Assembly: GCF_016765655.2 (NCBI RefSeq)
Contig: NZ_CP086109.1
Span: 124,001 to 188,000, forward strand
Length of the DNA: 64,000 nt
Direction: 5' to 3'
Source of the DNA: Skermanella mucosa
GTDB lineage: Bacteria > Pseudomonadota > Alphaproteobacteria > Azospirillales > Azospirillaceae
Shown: in pieces, positions 51,307 through 58,747 of the stretch
How positions within the stretch are numbered: the first letter of the stretch is position 1
How the letters are laid out: every line of letters starts with the position of its first letter
The notes under the pieces: generated by a model
Told to the model about the DNA's origin: nothing
What the model saw: only the letters and a program-made list of their open reading frames with translations
Databases searched by the model: none
Position numbers and translations under genes: made by a program

Positions 51307-52638
51307 ATGGGAAGTCAGTATCTTAATGCCGACCGGCGCGACCGCAACAGCCGCGCCCTCATCATTCATCCCGTGCTCCAGGGCGATTCGCAGACGCGCT
51401 CGCCGGAAGCCCGCCTGGAGGAGGCCGCCGGCCTCGCCCGGGCGATCGACCTGGACGTGGCCCACGCCCGCGCGGTCAAGGTCAACCGGCCGCAGCCGGC
51501 GACCCTGCTGGGCGGCGGCATCGTGGCCGAGCTGGCGGCGCTGGTCGCCGACGCCGACGAGCGGGGCGAGCCGATCGACCTGGTGGTGGTCGACCACGCG
51601 CTGTCGCCCGTGCAGCAGCGCAACCTGGAGCGGGAGTTCAAGGCCAAGGTGATCGACCGCACCGGCCTGATCCTGGAGATCTTCGGCGCCCGCGCCCGGA
51701 CCCGCGAGGGTCAGCTCCAGGTCGAGCTGGCGGCGCTGAGCTACCAGCGCTCGCGGCTGGTCCGGTCCTGGACCCACTTGGAGCGGCAGCGCGGCGGCTT
51801 CGGCTTCATCGGCGGTCCCGGCGAAAGCCAGCTGGAGATCGACCGCCGGCTGATCGGCGAGCGCATCGTCAAGCTGAAGCGGCAGCTGGAGGAGGTCCGC
51901 CGGACCCGCGGCCTGCACCGCAAGGCGCGCGCCCGCGTGCCCTATCCGGTGGTGGCGCTGGTGGGATACACCAACGCCGGCAAGTCCACGCTGTTCAACC
52001 GCATGAGCGGGGCCGACGCCTTCGCCAAGGACCTGCTGTTCGCGACGCTCGATCCGGCCATGCGGTCGATCCGGCTGCCGTCGGGCAGCAAGGTGATCGT
52101 GTCCGACACGGTCGGGTTCATCTCGGACCTGCCGACCTCGCTGGTGGCGGCGTTCCGCGCCACGCTGGAGGAGGTGCAGTCGGCCGACGTGATCCTGCAT
52201 GTCCGCGACATCGCCCATCCCGACACCGAGGCCCAGAAGGCCGACGTGGAGGCGATCCTGAGGGACCTGGACATCGATCCCGAGACCGATCCGCGGGTGG
52301 TCGAGGTCCTGAACAAGACCGACCTGCTGGAGCCGGCCGAGCGCGAGGGCGTGCTGGCCCGGAACGACAGGGCGACGGCGTCGGTGCCGGTCTCCGCGGT
52401 CACCGGCGAGGGCCTGGAGCGGCTGTTCCAGGTGCTCGACGGGCACCGGACGGCGGGGCGCCAGGTGATCGACGTGGACGTGGACCTGGCCGACGGGGCC
52501 ACGCTGTCCTGGCTCTATGCCCGGGGCGAGGTGCTGGACCGGCGCGACGACGAGGACCAGGCCCATCTCCGCGTCGCCATGGAGCCCGCCCATCTGGCCC
52601 GGTTCGCCGGGATGACCGGGCAGGCGGCCCGCGCCTGA
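51307..52638 (+). CDS. hflX: GTPase HflX
   Basis: A 443-residue GTPase of the Obg-HflX superfamily that binds the ribosome and rescues stalled or stressed subunits. HflX domain: ALIIHPVLQGDSQTRSPEARLEEA, then the glycine-rich linker RQRGGFGFIGGPGESQLEIDRRLI. GTP-binding motifs: G1 GYTNAGKST, G3 DTVGFI, G4 NKTD. The ATG at 51307 is taken as the start, an alternative being 51289. It pairs with the RNase J-like gene 22 bp upstream. In most alphaproteobacteria hflX sits next to hfq; here it does not. Confidence 0.88.
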   Translation: MGSQYLNADRRDRNSRALIIHPVLQGDSQTRSPEARLEEAAGLARAIDLDVAHARAVKVNRPQPATLLGGGIVAELAALVADADERGEPIDLVVVDHALSPVQQRNLEREFKAKVIDRTGLILEIFGARARTREGQLQVELAALSYQRSRLVRSWTHLERQRGGFGFIGGPGESQLEIDRRLIGERIVKLKRQLEEVRRTRGLHRKARARVPYPVVALVGYTNAGKSTLFNRMSGADAFAKDLLFATLDPAMRSIRLPSGSKVIVSDTVGFISDLPTSLVAAFRATLEEVQSADVILHVRDIAHPDTEAQKADVEAILRDLDIDPETDPRVVEVLNKTDLLEPAEREGVLARNDRATASVPVSAVTGEGLERLFQVLDGHRTAGRQVIDVDVDLADGATLSWLYARGEVLDRRDDEDQAHLRVAMEPAHLARFAGMTGQAARA

Positions 52639-52683
52639 GGGTCGGCCGCTAGGGAACTGGTGAAAAAACCTGGCCGGGCAGTC

Positions 52684-52712
52684 TTGCACCGGTCCCGGGC
52701 AGGTTCCACATA
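52684..52712 (+). promoter_or_regulatory. Promoter of mini-gene copy A
   Basis: TTGCAC (52684-52689), 17-nt spacer, CACATA (52707-52712). The same arrangement with TACATA recurs at copy B, so it is conserved in both position and sequence. Confidence 0.6.
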
Positions 52713-52749
52713 ACAGTTACTGTCGCAACAACAGAAAGGAGGTGATCTT

Positions 52750-52824
52750 GTGTCTCATTGTTCAAAGCCGCGGTCGTCGTTCACAGTGACCAAGGTCTTC
52801 GCCTCCGGCGGGATCTACGCGTAA
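52750..52824 (+). CDS. 24-residue peptide of the duplicated mini-gene (copy A)
   Basis: A GTG-started 24-codon ORF (52750-52824). The Shine-Dalgarno region AGAAAGGAGGTGATC (52733-52747) is complementary to the terminal 15 nt of alphaproteobacterial 16S rRNA, with GGAGG 7 nt before the GTG. The peptide begins VSHCSKPRSSFTVTKV. Copy B (58557) shares 17 of 24 residues, including Cys4, KPRSS and ASG. Eight nucleotide differences exist between copies, seven of them changing residues, so peptide-level selection is not clear. Its function is unknown; translation initiation at this site should be extremely strong, and a role of the RNA itself is possible. Confidence 0.6.
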   Translation: MSHCSKPRSSFTVTKVFASGGIYA

Positions 52825-52871
52825 TACTGCGTCGCATCGTGGTCCTTGACCGGGCCGTGGTTTGACAATTG

Positions 52872-52897
52872 AAAGGCCGCCCTTCGGGGCGGCCTTT
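52872..52897 (+). terminator. Terminator of mini-gene copy A
   Basis: Perfect 11-bp stem (AAAGGCCGCCC / GGGCGGCCTTT) with a TTCG tetraloop, 47 bp after the stop codon, followed by a short pyrimidine run. Confidence 0.75.
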
Positions 52898-52979
52898 CTG
52901 TTTCGGGGCGCTACGGATGATCATGCGCACGCAATGCGGTTCGGATCGGATGATCCCGGCAGGACCGGCATCCTTCCTG

Positions 52980-54891: not shown

Positions 54892-55020
54892 TGATCTGCG
54901 CATTGGTGTGGGTGAGTCGAATTCTCCCATCTCCGGTACGGTAGCGTACAATCATAACCGGTTCCTCGTGCTCTCCTATGCACGGACAAACTGCTTTCAG
55001 GAATTTTCCTCCCTGATCTG

Positions 55021-55057
55021 ATGGCCATCCGAGCTCCTGCGGGTGGCCATTTTTTTG
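55021..55057 (+). terminator. Intrinsic terminator downstream of the Crp/Fnr gene
   Basis: ATGGCCATCCG / CGGGTGGCCAT stem (one G-U pair) with an 8-nt loop, followed by eight T (55050-55057). This is the clearest rho-independent terminator in the window. Confidence 0.85.
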
Positions 55058-55393
55058 TTGCAAGGCTATGGCACAGGACGGCATTTCCGCTTGATCATCT
55101 TGACGGCCCGATCTATCTGGCCGATCAGGCATGGCGGCTTCCACCGGGCGGAAGCAAATACCTCATACACACCTTCCGGGGCCTTGGTGAGGCGTATCGG
55201 AATGCCGCCCCGGCGCAGCGGGAGGAGCGGTCTGGACGGTTACGTGGTTCGTATGACCACGTCCTGACATAGCTCTCCTCGGTACCAGTCCTGCTGCTGC
55301 CGGCGGTTGACAGGAAGGAATGCAGCCTGGTTTGGCGTATGATCGTGCGTGTTCCATGGCGTCACCGCCTATCAACGCTCCAGCGTGTCACGG
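55058..55393. other. Gap without recognised gene
   Basis: Only short ORFs with no family pattern are present, on both strands. No repeats or operators of note are seen. Confidence 0.5.
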
Positions 55394-58490: not shown

Positions 58491-58519
58491 TTGCACCGGT
58501 TCCGGGCGGGTTCTACATA
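58491..58519 (+). promoter_or_regulatory. Promoter of mini-gene copy B
   Basis: TTGCAC (58491-58496), 17-nt spacer, TACATA (58514-58519). It is the same arrangement as copy A. Confidence 0.6.
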
Positions 58520-58556
58520 GTAGTCACTGTCGCAACAACAGAAAGGAGGTGATCTT

Positions 58557-58631
58557 GTGTCTAATTGTTCCAAGCCGCGGTCGTCGGTCACAGTGACCAG
58601 GGTCATCGCCTCCGGCGAGACCAACGCGTAA
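58557..58631 (+). CDS. 24-residue peptide of the duplicated mini-gene (copy B)
   Basis: GTG-started 24-codon ORF (58557-58631). The leader has AGAAAGGAGGTGATC at 58540-58554, identical to copy A and complementary to the 16S rRNA 3' end, with GGAGG 7 nt before the GTG. The peptide begins VSNCSKPRSSVTVTRV and ends in SGETNA. Position 15 is Arg (Lys in copy A). This copy lies between the TonB receptor and AapJ genes, 5.8 kb from copy A, with the same strand and promoter. Neither copy is associated with a constant neighbour, suggesting an autonomous mini-gene. Confidence 0.6.
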   Translation: MSNCSKPRSSVTVTRVIASGETNA

Positions 58632-58679
58632 TACAGCGTCTATCGTGGTTCTTGACCGAACCGTGGTTTGACAATTCGG

Positions 58680-58705
58680 AAAGGCCGTCCTTCGGGGCGG
58701 CCTTT
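58680..58705 (+). terminator. Terminator of mini-gene copy B
   Basis: AAAGGCCGTCC / GGGCGGCCTTT stem with a TTCG loop (one G-U pair), followed by CTTCTT. Homologous to the copy A hairpin. Confidence 0.72.
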
Positions 58706-58747
58706 CTTCTTGTGCGGCGCAAGGAATTGACATCGAGGGCAAGAGAA

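Follow-up and report, generated by a model that had tools for sequence, protein, structure and literature searches.

A CC2171-related alphaproteobacterial RNA joins a leader that complements the 16S rRNA tail to a conserved open frame whose translation, rather than its peptide, may be what is selected

Why would a short, self-contained gene place, ahead of a reading frame of 24 codons, a stretch that complements the 3' end of 16S rRNA far beyond what a usual Shine-Dalgarno sequence needs? The window, by which we mean the whole 64,000-nucleotide stretch of Skermanella mucosa DNA analysed here, raises this question twice. It contains two units of ~215 bp, each of which runs, 5' to 3', from promoter-like sites through a leader complementary to the 16S rRNA tail and a GTG-started ORF to a terminator (Table 1). 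Direct reading confirmed the layout that an earlier, sequence-only reading had given for both loci: a -35/-10 pair spaced by 17 nt, the leader, a GTG-started 24-codon ORF and a terminator with a TTCG loop. Its comparison of the two peptides also held on recounting by hand, with 17 of 24 residues identical and eight codons different, seven of them non-synonymously. We regard the two loci as paralogous, self-contained genes for an alphaproteobacterial RNA whose homology to CC2171 is nearly certain.

Table 1. Positions of the two units and of their features in the window
Feature	Position	Strand	Basis and remarks
Copy 1, whole unit	52684-52898		
Copy 1 promoter-like pair, TTGCAC-17-CACATA	52684..52712	+	By eye; -10 weak; copy 2 similar
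Copy 1 RF01867 (CC2171) homologue, model 1-159	52726..52896	+	69.6 bits, E 3.2e-13; gathering score of 75 missed
Copy 1 leader, 15-nt complement of the 16S rRNA 3' tail, AGAAAGGAGGTGATC	52733..52747	+	Motif search
Copy 1 ORF, 24 codons, GTG start, TAA stop, peptide VSHCSKPRSSFTVTKVFASGGIYA	52750..52824	+	Locus L236
Copy 1 helix P1, 5' arm AUUGUU, within codons 3-5	52757..52762	+	Rfam model; covariation
Copy 1 helix P1, 3' arm GACAAU	52864..52869	+	Paired in centroid; minimum-energy structure pairs the region differently
Copy 1 intrinsic terminator, C(UUCG)G loop	52871..52898	+	Sequence and predicted fold
Copy 2, whole unit	58491-58707		
Copy 2 promoter-like pair, TTGCAC-17-TACATA	58491..58519	+	By eye; -10 weak
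Copy 2 RF01867 (CC2171) homologue, model 1-159	58533..58704	+	64.9 bits, E 4.7e-12; gathering score of 75 missed
Copy 2 leader, 15-nt complement of the 16S tail, AGAAAGGAGGTGATC	58540..58554	+	Motif search
Copy 2 ORF, 24 codons, GTG start, TAA stop, peptide VSNCSKPRSSVTVTRVIASGETNA	58557..58631	+	Sequence reading
Copy 2 helix P1, 5' arm AAUUGUU	58563..58569	+	Rfam model; predicted fold
Copy 2 helix P1, 3' arm GACAAUU	58670..58676	+	Rfam model; predicted fold
Copy 2 intrinsic terminator, C(UUCG)G loop	58678..58707	+	Sequence and predicted fold

The sequence-only reading knew of no described family with this form. This was wrong: in a scan by E-value, both copies match the covariance model of RF01867 (CC2171, a Caulobacter sRNA) end to end (E 3e-13 and 5e-12). 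At gathering scores, scanning the window with Rfam gave zero matches, and neither copy reaches the RF01867 gathering score of 75 bits; therefore, we call them homologues rather than formal members. They have in common with CC2171 the leader sequence, the GUGUCUCAUUGUC start region, the long-range helix and the terminator. Over these units, 11 of 18 related sources pass the RF01867 cut-off and seven fall below it. Across the class, matches at E<=1e-3 occur in 94 of 387 genomes (14 reach the cut-off) in a scan whose filters lose weak matches, and among 14 control genomes only Caulobacter vibrioides has one. Of 40 weaker matches that we inspected, 33 have both leader and ORF; the seven without the leader are likely false. 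The leader plus start-region pattern is present in 59 of the 387 class genomes, and the reversed control pattern in none among the matches listed. A pattern scan of named genomes matched at least 120 stretches, at least 80 of them with names, and yields no prevalence figure; among the matches listed are records from Sphingomonadales, Hyphomicrobiales, Rhodospirillales, Acetobacteraceae, Caulobacterales and Azospirillum. The unit, on whose presence in relatives the earlier reading depended, is thus found in many of them.

The leader is also found on plasmids. At its place, the PLSDB gene tables, which are incomplete, list no gene in eight plasmid records (Skermanella, Azospirillum, Methylobacterium and Sphingobium). 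Two partial leader matches in Azospirillum plasmids are annotated there as 'hypothetical protein' and probably belong to the type with a long ORF described below. Phage records gave partial leader matches only, none above 80% of the query. The window itself lies on a 308-kb contig, and 76% of a 2.5-kb query from it aligns with a plasmid of Skermanella rosea at 94.2% identity. Another genome of the genus carries three copies on one contig (G002:C4:179920, 192932 and 201088), so the unit seems to multiply in Skermanella.

How unusual is the leader? With up to three mismatches allowed, AGAAAGGAGGTGATC has two matches in the window, both exact (0.82 expected by chance), and with at most one mismatch it has three in the genome. 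No 16S gene was found in this genome assembly, and the complement was compared with the 16S of relatives instead. Records of Azospirillum, Sphingomonas, Rhodobacter, Bosea and others contain the typed 16S 3' end, ...GGATCACCTCCTTTCT, with no mismatch; this stretch is the tail left free beyond helix 45. We then compared 63 leader rows that had been found by the Rfam model, not by the leader, omitting the seven weaker matches that lack it. Positions 2-16 carry 44 changes, of which 29 keep pairing by G.U and 15 break it, in a set that is not fully blind because the Rfam model scores the leader as well and the rows share ancestry. The change seen most often, A to G facing a U, accounts for 15 of the 44, and position 1, the first A of the 15-mer, is not conserved, being able to pair in 15 of the 63 rows.

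Two further samples were drawn with the leader itself. Among 143 class genomes, 33 contain AAAGGAGGTGATCNNNTG, with 36 occurrences in all and CTG in none of them. At 29 of 30 of these loci the ORF is complete, with 14-57 codons, and at the remaining one a contig end cuts it; TCT, the usual second codon, is missing from a few (e.g. L288, L294 and L302). In a sample of the phylum, AAGGAGGTGATCNNNTG is found in 42 of 71 Alphaproteobacteria (46 matches, none with CTG) compared with 9 of 128 others (11 matches, five with CTG). Family-type ORFs of 14-56 codons follow it at 28 of 30 loci from this sample; at the exceptions, L321 (52 codons, untypical) and L336 (187 codons), the leader pattern stands ahead of other frames. 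Judged from sequence, almost all of the free 16S tail has its complement in the leader, and this complement is exceptional and conserved. The earlier claim of a 15-base match beyond a usual Shine-Dalgarno sequence is upheld by the 16S ends of relatives, the conservation in the 63 rows and the phylum sample.

The second shared element is a long-range helix, P1, in which codons 3-5 pair with a stretch just before the terminator. P1 is already contained in the RF01867 model. Its arms change with the subfamily: CATTGTC/GACAATG in the main group, CATGGTTCAGC/GCTGACCATG in sphingomonads, and CATCGC/GCGATG, AATGAGATT/AATCTCAT and others besides. With terminators located independently of P1 pairing, the mean duplex energy over 168 units (four further units being omitted by the pattern, as were units without a located terminator) was -12.4 kcal/mol with the unit's own 3' arm compared with -7.6 kcal/mol with the arms of other types. 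The own arm was better than every mismatched arm tried (up to 30 each) in 57 of the 168 units. P1 also covaries: when each arm type was represented by one unit, own arms beat the median mismatched pair in 51 of 55 types. The predicted folds of the two copies have z values of -3.6 and -6.4; that of copy 2 contains P1 and a rod around the ORF, and for copy 1 the centroid has P1, whereas the minimum-energy structure does not form it as drawn. Over 155 units, the predicted mean unpaired fraction is 0.31 for codons 3-5, which are mostly paired, 0.47 for the leader and 0.54 for the start codon.

From leader and helix we infer a simple course of events. 30S subunits with a mature 16S tail would dock on the leader, from which the start codon stands at a normal distance, and because P1 starts at about nt +7, initiation would have to melt it. 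If P1 does melt on initiation, the RNA would have a closed, unloaded state and an open, ribosome-loaded one.

Would such an RNA be translated, or would it only hold the subunit? The same features could make a non-coding 30S trap, in which leader and start codon imitate an ideal initiation site while the downstream helix prevents accommodation, so that 30S subunits are held or counted and the RNA stays untranslated. The near-complete tail complement with its mostly G.U-tolerant variation, the start of the helix at about nt +7 and the Rfam class 'sRNA' all suit such a trap. However, the frame and its stop codons do not. Among 143 units deduplicated at 90% (eight long-ORF units and the contig-cut L069 omitted; L209, cut after 16 codons, included), a stop falls within 15 codons of the start in one unit in frame 0 compared with 61 and 30 in the other frames (Fisher p 9e-21 and 6e-9), and letter shuffling predicts about 58 of 143 (20.2 of 43 and 37.7 of 100). 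In the G464 family, which is presumably from Rhizobiaceae, frame 0 and the others have 0, 11 and 33 early stops in 37 rows that were not deduplicated. Moreover, the ORF of the sphingomonad type has exactly 18 codons before its stop in 39 of 43 units, and that stop may be TAA (21), TGA (18) or TAG (4). A conserved open frame with interchangeable stops is unexpected of an untranslated RNA. At the other end of the ORF, 170 units start with GTG (84), ATG (81) or TTG (5), with no CTG in the samples examined, and codon 2 is TCT in 156; since most of this collection was gathered by the pattern RTGTCT, the evidence on start codons proper comes from the 63-row, AAAGGAGGTGATCNNNTG and AAGGAGGTGATCNNNTG samples. 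Reading frame and stop are, on these alignments, conserved, and a translated RNA accounts for the open frame better than a passive titrator does. We therefore consider the trap unlikely and hold that the ORF is very probably translated.

Rather improbable, too, is that the RNA is a base-pairing regulator or sponge, for example of sRNAs with CCUCC (anti-Shine-Dalgarno) loops, and that the ORF protects or times it. CCUCC motifs are described in alphaproteobacterial sRNAs in the accessible text of two reports (PMC3927594, PMC12559287), and a suhB/mmgR-like sRNA match lies between the two copies (54989-55063, + strand), at 29.3 bits below its cut-off of 41 (E 0.005). However, pairing with a CCUCC loop would need a shorter stretch than the one conserved here, which fits the 16S tail, and the P1 arms change sequence between subfamilies, so they cannot present a single fixed target site.

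If ribosomes dock and translate, as we favor, does the peptide matter? The sequence-only reading had counted a highly expressed micropeptide among the possible roles, and an open frame is what one would expect of a small mRNA for a micropeptide with a cellular function. We compared differences by codon position in disjoint nearest pairs, at most 25% different, of the short type, the type with 56-59 codons being too small a sample. From codon 6 to the end, first, second and third positions differ 35/35/36 times in the main group (18 pairs), 17/24/14 times in the sphingomonad type (18 pairs) and 31/25/26 times in the G464 family (13 pairs). The control from neighboring genes, which covers the main group and the sphingomonad type and not the G464 family, gives 1485/1012/4584 (16 of 18 pairs usable) and 826/582/2208 (11 of 18 pairs usable). 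The third-position share is thus 0.34 in the ORF versus 0.65 in neighboring genes for the main group (p 1e-10), and 0.25 versus 0.61 for the sphingomonad type (p 1e-7). The short type shows no sign of selection on peptide sequence past codon 5 in the codon-position test of three lineages, although the few pairs and the structured ORF leave room for weak peptide selection. The codon-position tests support the suggestion of the sequence-only reading that the RNA may matter more than the peptide. With frame 0 kept open and no amino-acid constraint seen, it is an open, presumably translated frame that appears to be under selection, and the peptide sequence is probably largely irrelevant.

Some members nevertheless have peptide ends that recur. 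A GGAGCAACCTTC-like motif lies late in the ORF of L246, L260, L270, L351, L361 and others, and the frame in which it is read differs between members. Read in one frame it gives EQPS-like peptide ends and in another it gives other residues; a similar, GGCAGCCCTTGG-like stretch lies past the stop in other members. Since the EQPS-like ends arise from a nucleotide motif read in several frames, it looks like an RNA motif.

A different case is the long type, in which 8 of 167 units have ORFs of 56-59 codons that resemble secreted proteins; in some branches, therefore, the product may matter. A third relative in the S. mucosa genome (G000:C1:2630574; L003, L031) has the same leader and long-range helix ahead of a secreted-like 56-codon ORF, and ORFs similar to it occur in Azospirillum loci. 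For the family at large, these exported-looking relatives and the open frame are what a micropeptide has in its favor. Against it stand the lack of a third-position excess in three lineages when that excess is strong in the neighboring genes of two, and the EQPS-like end that traces to a nucleotide motif read elsewhere in another frame. We find a micropeptide as the purpose of the gene unsupported and quite improbable, and prefer a frame that is translated for the sake of translation.

Copy 1 lies 46 nt behind the stop of hflX, on the same strand (52638-52684), a gene identified by database match as well. HflX is a ribosome-splitting GTPase. Around copy 2 are what we take to be TonB-dependent receptor-like and solute-binding protein-like genes, both on the opposite strand, so the two copies do not share neighbors, as had been claimed. 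As judged from the ORFs of the window, the next likely genes downstream of both copies are on the opposite strand. Neighbors also differ among 19 related loci that we read, where the gene names are putative. No conserved downstream gene was seen in relatives across these 19 loci and the clusters of neighboring ORFs, which were built from rough ORF calls with orders not assigned systematically; the clusters show linkage that could be placed within single lineages. The largest, of 46 loci, was rejected as a linked gene, its frame looking like a shadow ORF. A leader-peptide attenuator of a downstream gene, which the short ORF followed by a terminator might suggest, is highly improbable given the opposite-strand genes after both copies, the differing neighbors at the 19 loci and the lack of runs of one amino acid.

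What, then, is the output of this RNA? Our preferred reading, to which we assign a probability of about 0.5, is that the RNA is engaged and translated by ribosomes and that the peptide would not be its output. What would count is that ribosomes load on it or translate it, most likely so that it can gauge or buffer the free 30S subunits that are competent for initiation. That particular role is the more tentative part, and we would not bet on it at even odds; we infer it from a leader that matches nearly the whole free 16S tail and a helix that would melt at initiation, which together suggest that the RNA may report or buffer free mature 30S subunits. Several findings count against this reading. 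In the leader, 15 of the 44 changes break pairing and the first base can pair in only 15 of 63 rows. In the predicted folds, the leader is only about half unpaired (0.47), and the minimum-energy structure of copy 1 does not form P1 as drawn. The leader pattern also stands ahead of other frames at L321 and L336, the long type has ORFs that resemble secreted proteins, and ribosome profiling of Caulobacter is reported to show its intergenic ncRNA regions as untranslated (Schrader et al. 2014, PMC4117421). More doubtful still is its fullest form, a class-wide RNA with a message-free ORF, mostly of 18-26 codons, on which 30S subunits would dock through almost all of the free 16S tail and whose translation would report or buffer the mature 30S pool. 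If the reading is true, RNAs that are catalogued as an sRNA gene and occur throughout much of a bacterial class would in fact be translated, with selection on the act of translation rather than on the product. It would offer a natural content-free ORF and a candidate sensor of ribosome availability, with a homologue in the model organism Caulobacter.

CC2171 is said to have entered the record as a Caulobacter sRNA with Landt et al. 2008. RF01867 is listed as an sRNA gene, whereas our comparison indicates a translated ORF. In the accessible text of the sources, Rfam 15 names CC2171 among the families improved by covariation (PMC11701678), a predicted copy is listed in Mesorhizobium (PMC5596092), and ribosome profiling of Caulobacter describes intergenic ncRNA regions as untranslated and two previously predicted ncRNAs as translated (Schrader et al. 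2014, PMC4117421). Our literature search for CC2171 and RF01867, outside of which most subscription papers lie, found no paper on a translated CC2171. One lead comes from Sinorhizobium, where SEP1 is described, in the part of the report available, as a product of 23 aa with a pI of 4.18 that ranks first in translation efficiency among the new sORFs (PMC10117765). The G464 family includes members with 22-25 aa and a predicted pI of 4.05-4.56, which is compatible with SEP1; on size and pI only, SEP1 might be the product of a CC2171-type RNA.

Other small RNAs resemble this one in part, as far as the accessible portions of the reports describe them. Dual-function or coding small RNAs, such as Pos19 of Rhodobacter (PMC5036791), likewise join a short transcript to a short ORF, but in the present RNA the peptide sequence shows no sign of being conserved past the first codons. 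The Sinorhizobium trp attenuator RNA, peTrpL/rnTrpL, is also a small alphaproteobacterial RNA with a short ORF (PMC10117765, PMC7298713). However, it is leaderless, whereas the RNA of the window has a 16S-complementary leader and no adjacent downstream gene on the same strand. Finally, the extended Shine-Dalgarno sites of Staphylococcus aureus (PMC13009471) also pair beyond the core anti-Shine-Dalgarno sequence. There, the extension is two extra base pairs in ordinary genes; here, the complement is about 15 nt long and, in our samples, nearly confined to CC2171-type genes.
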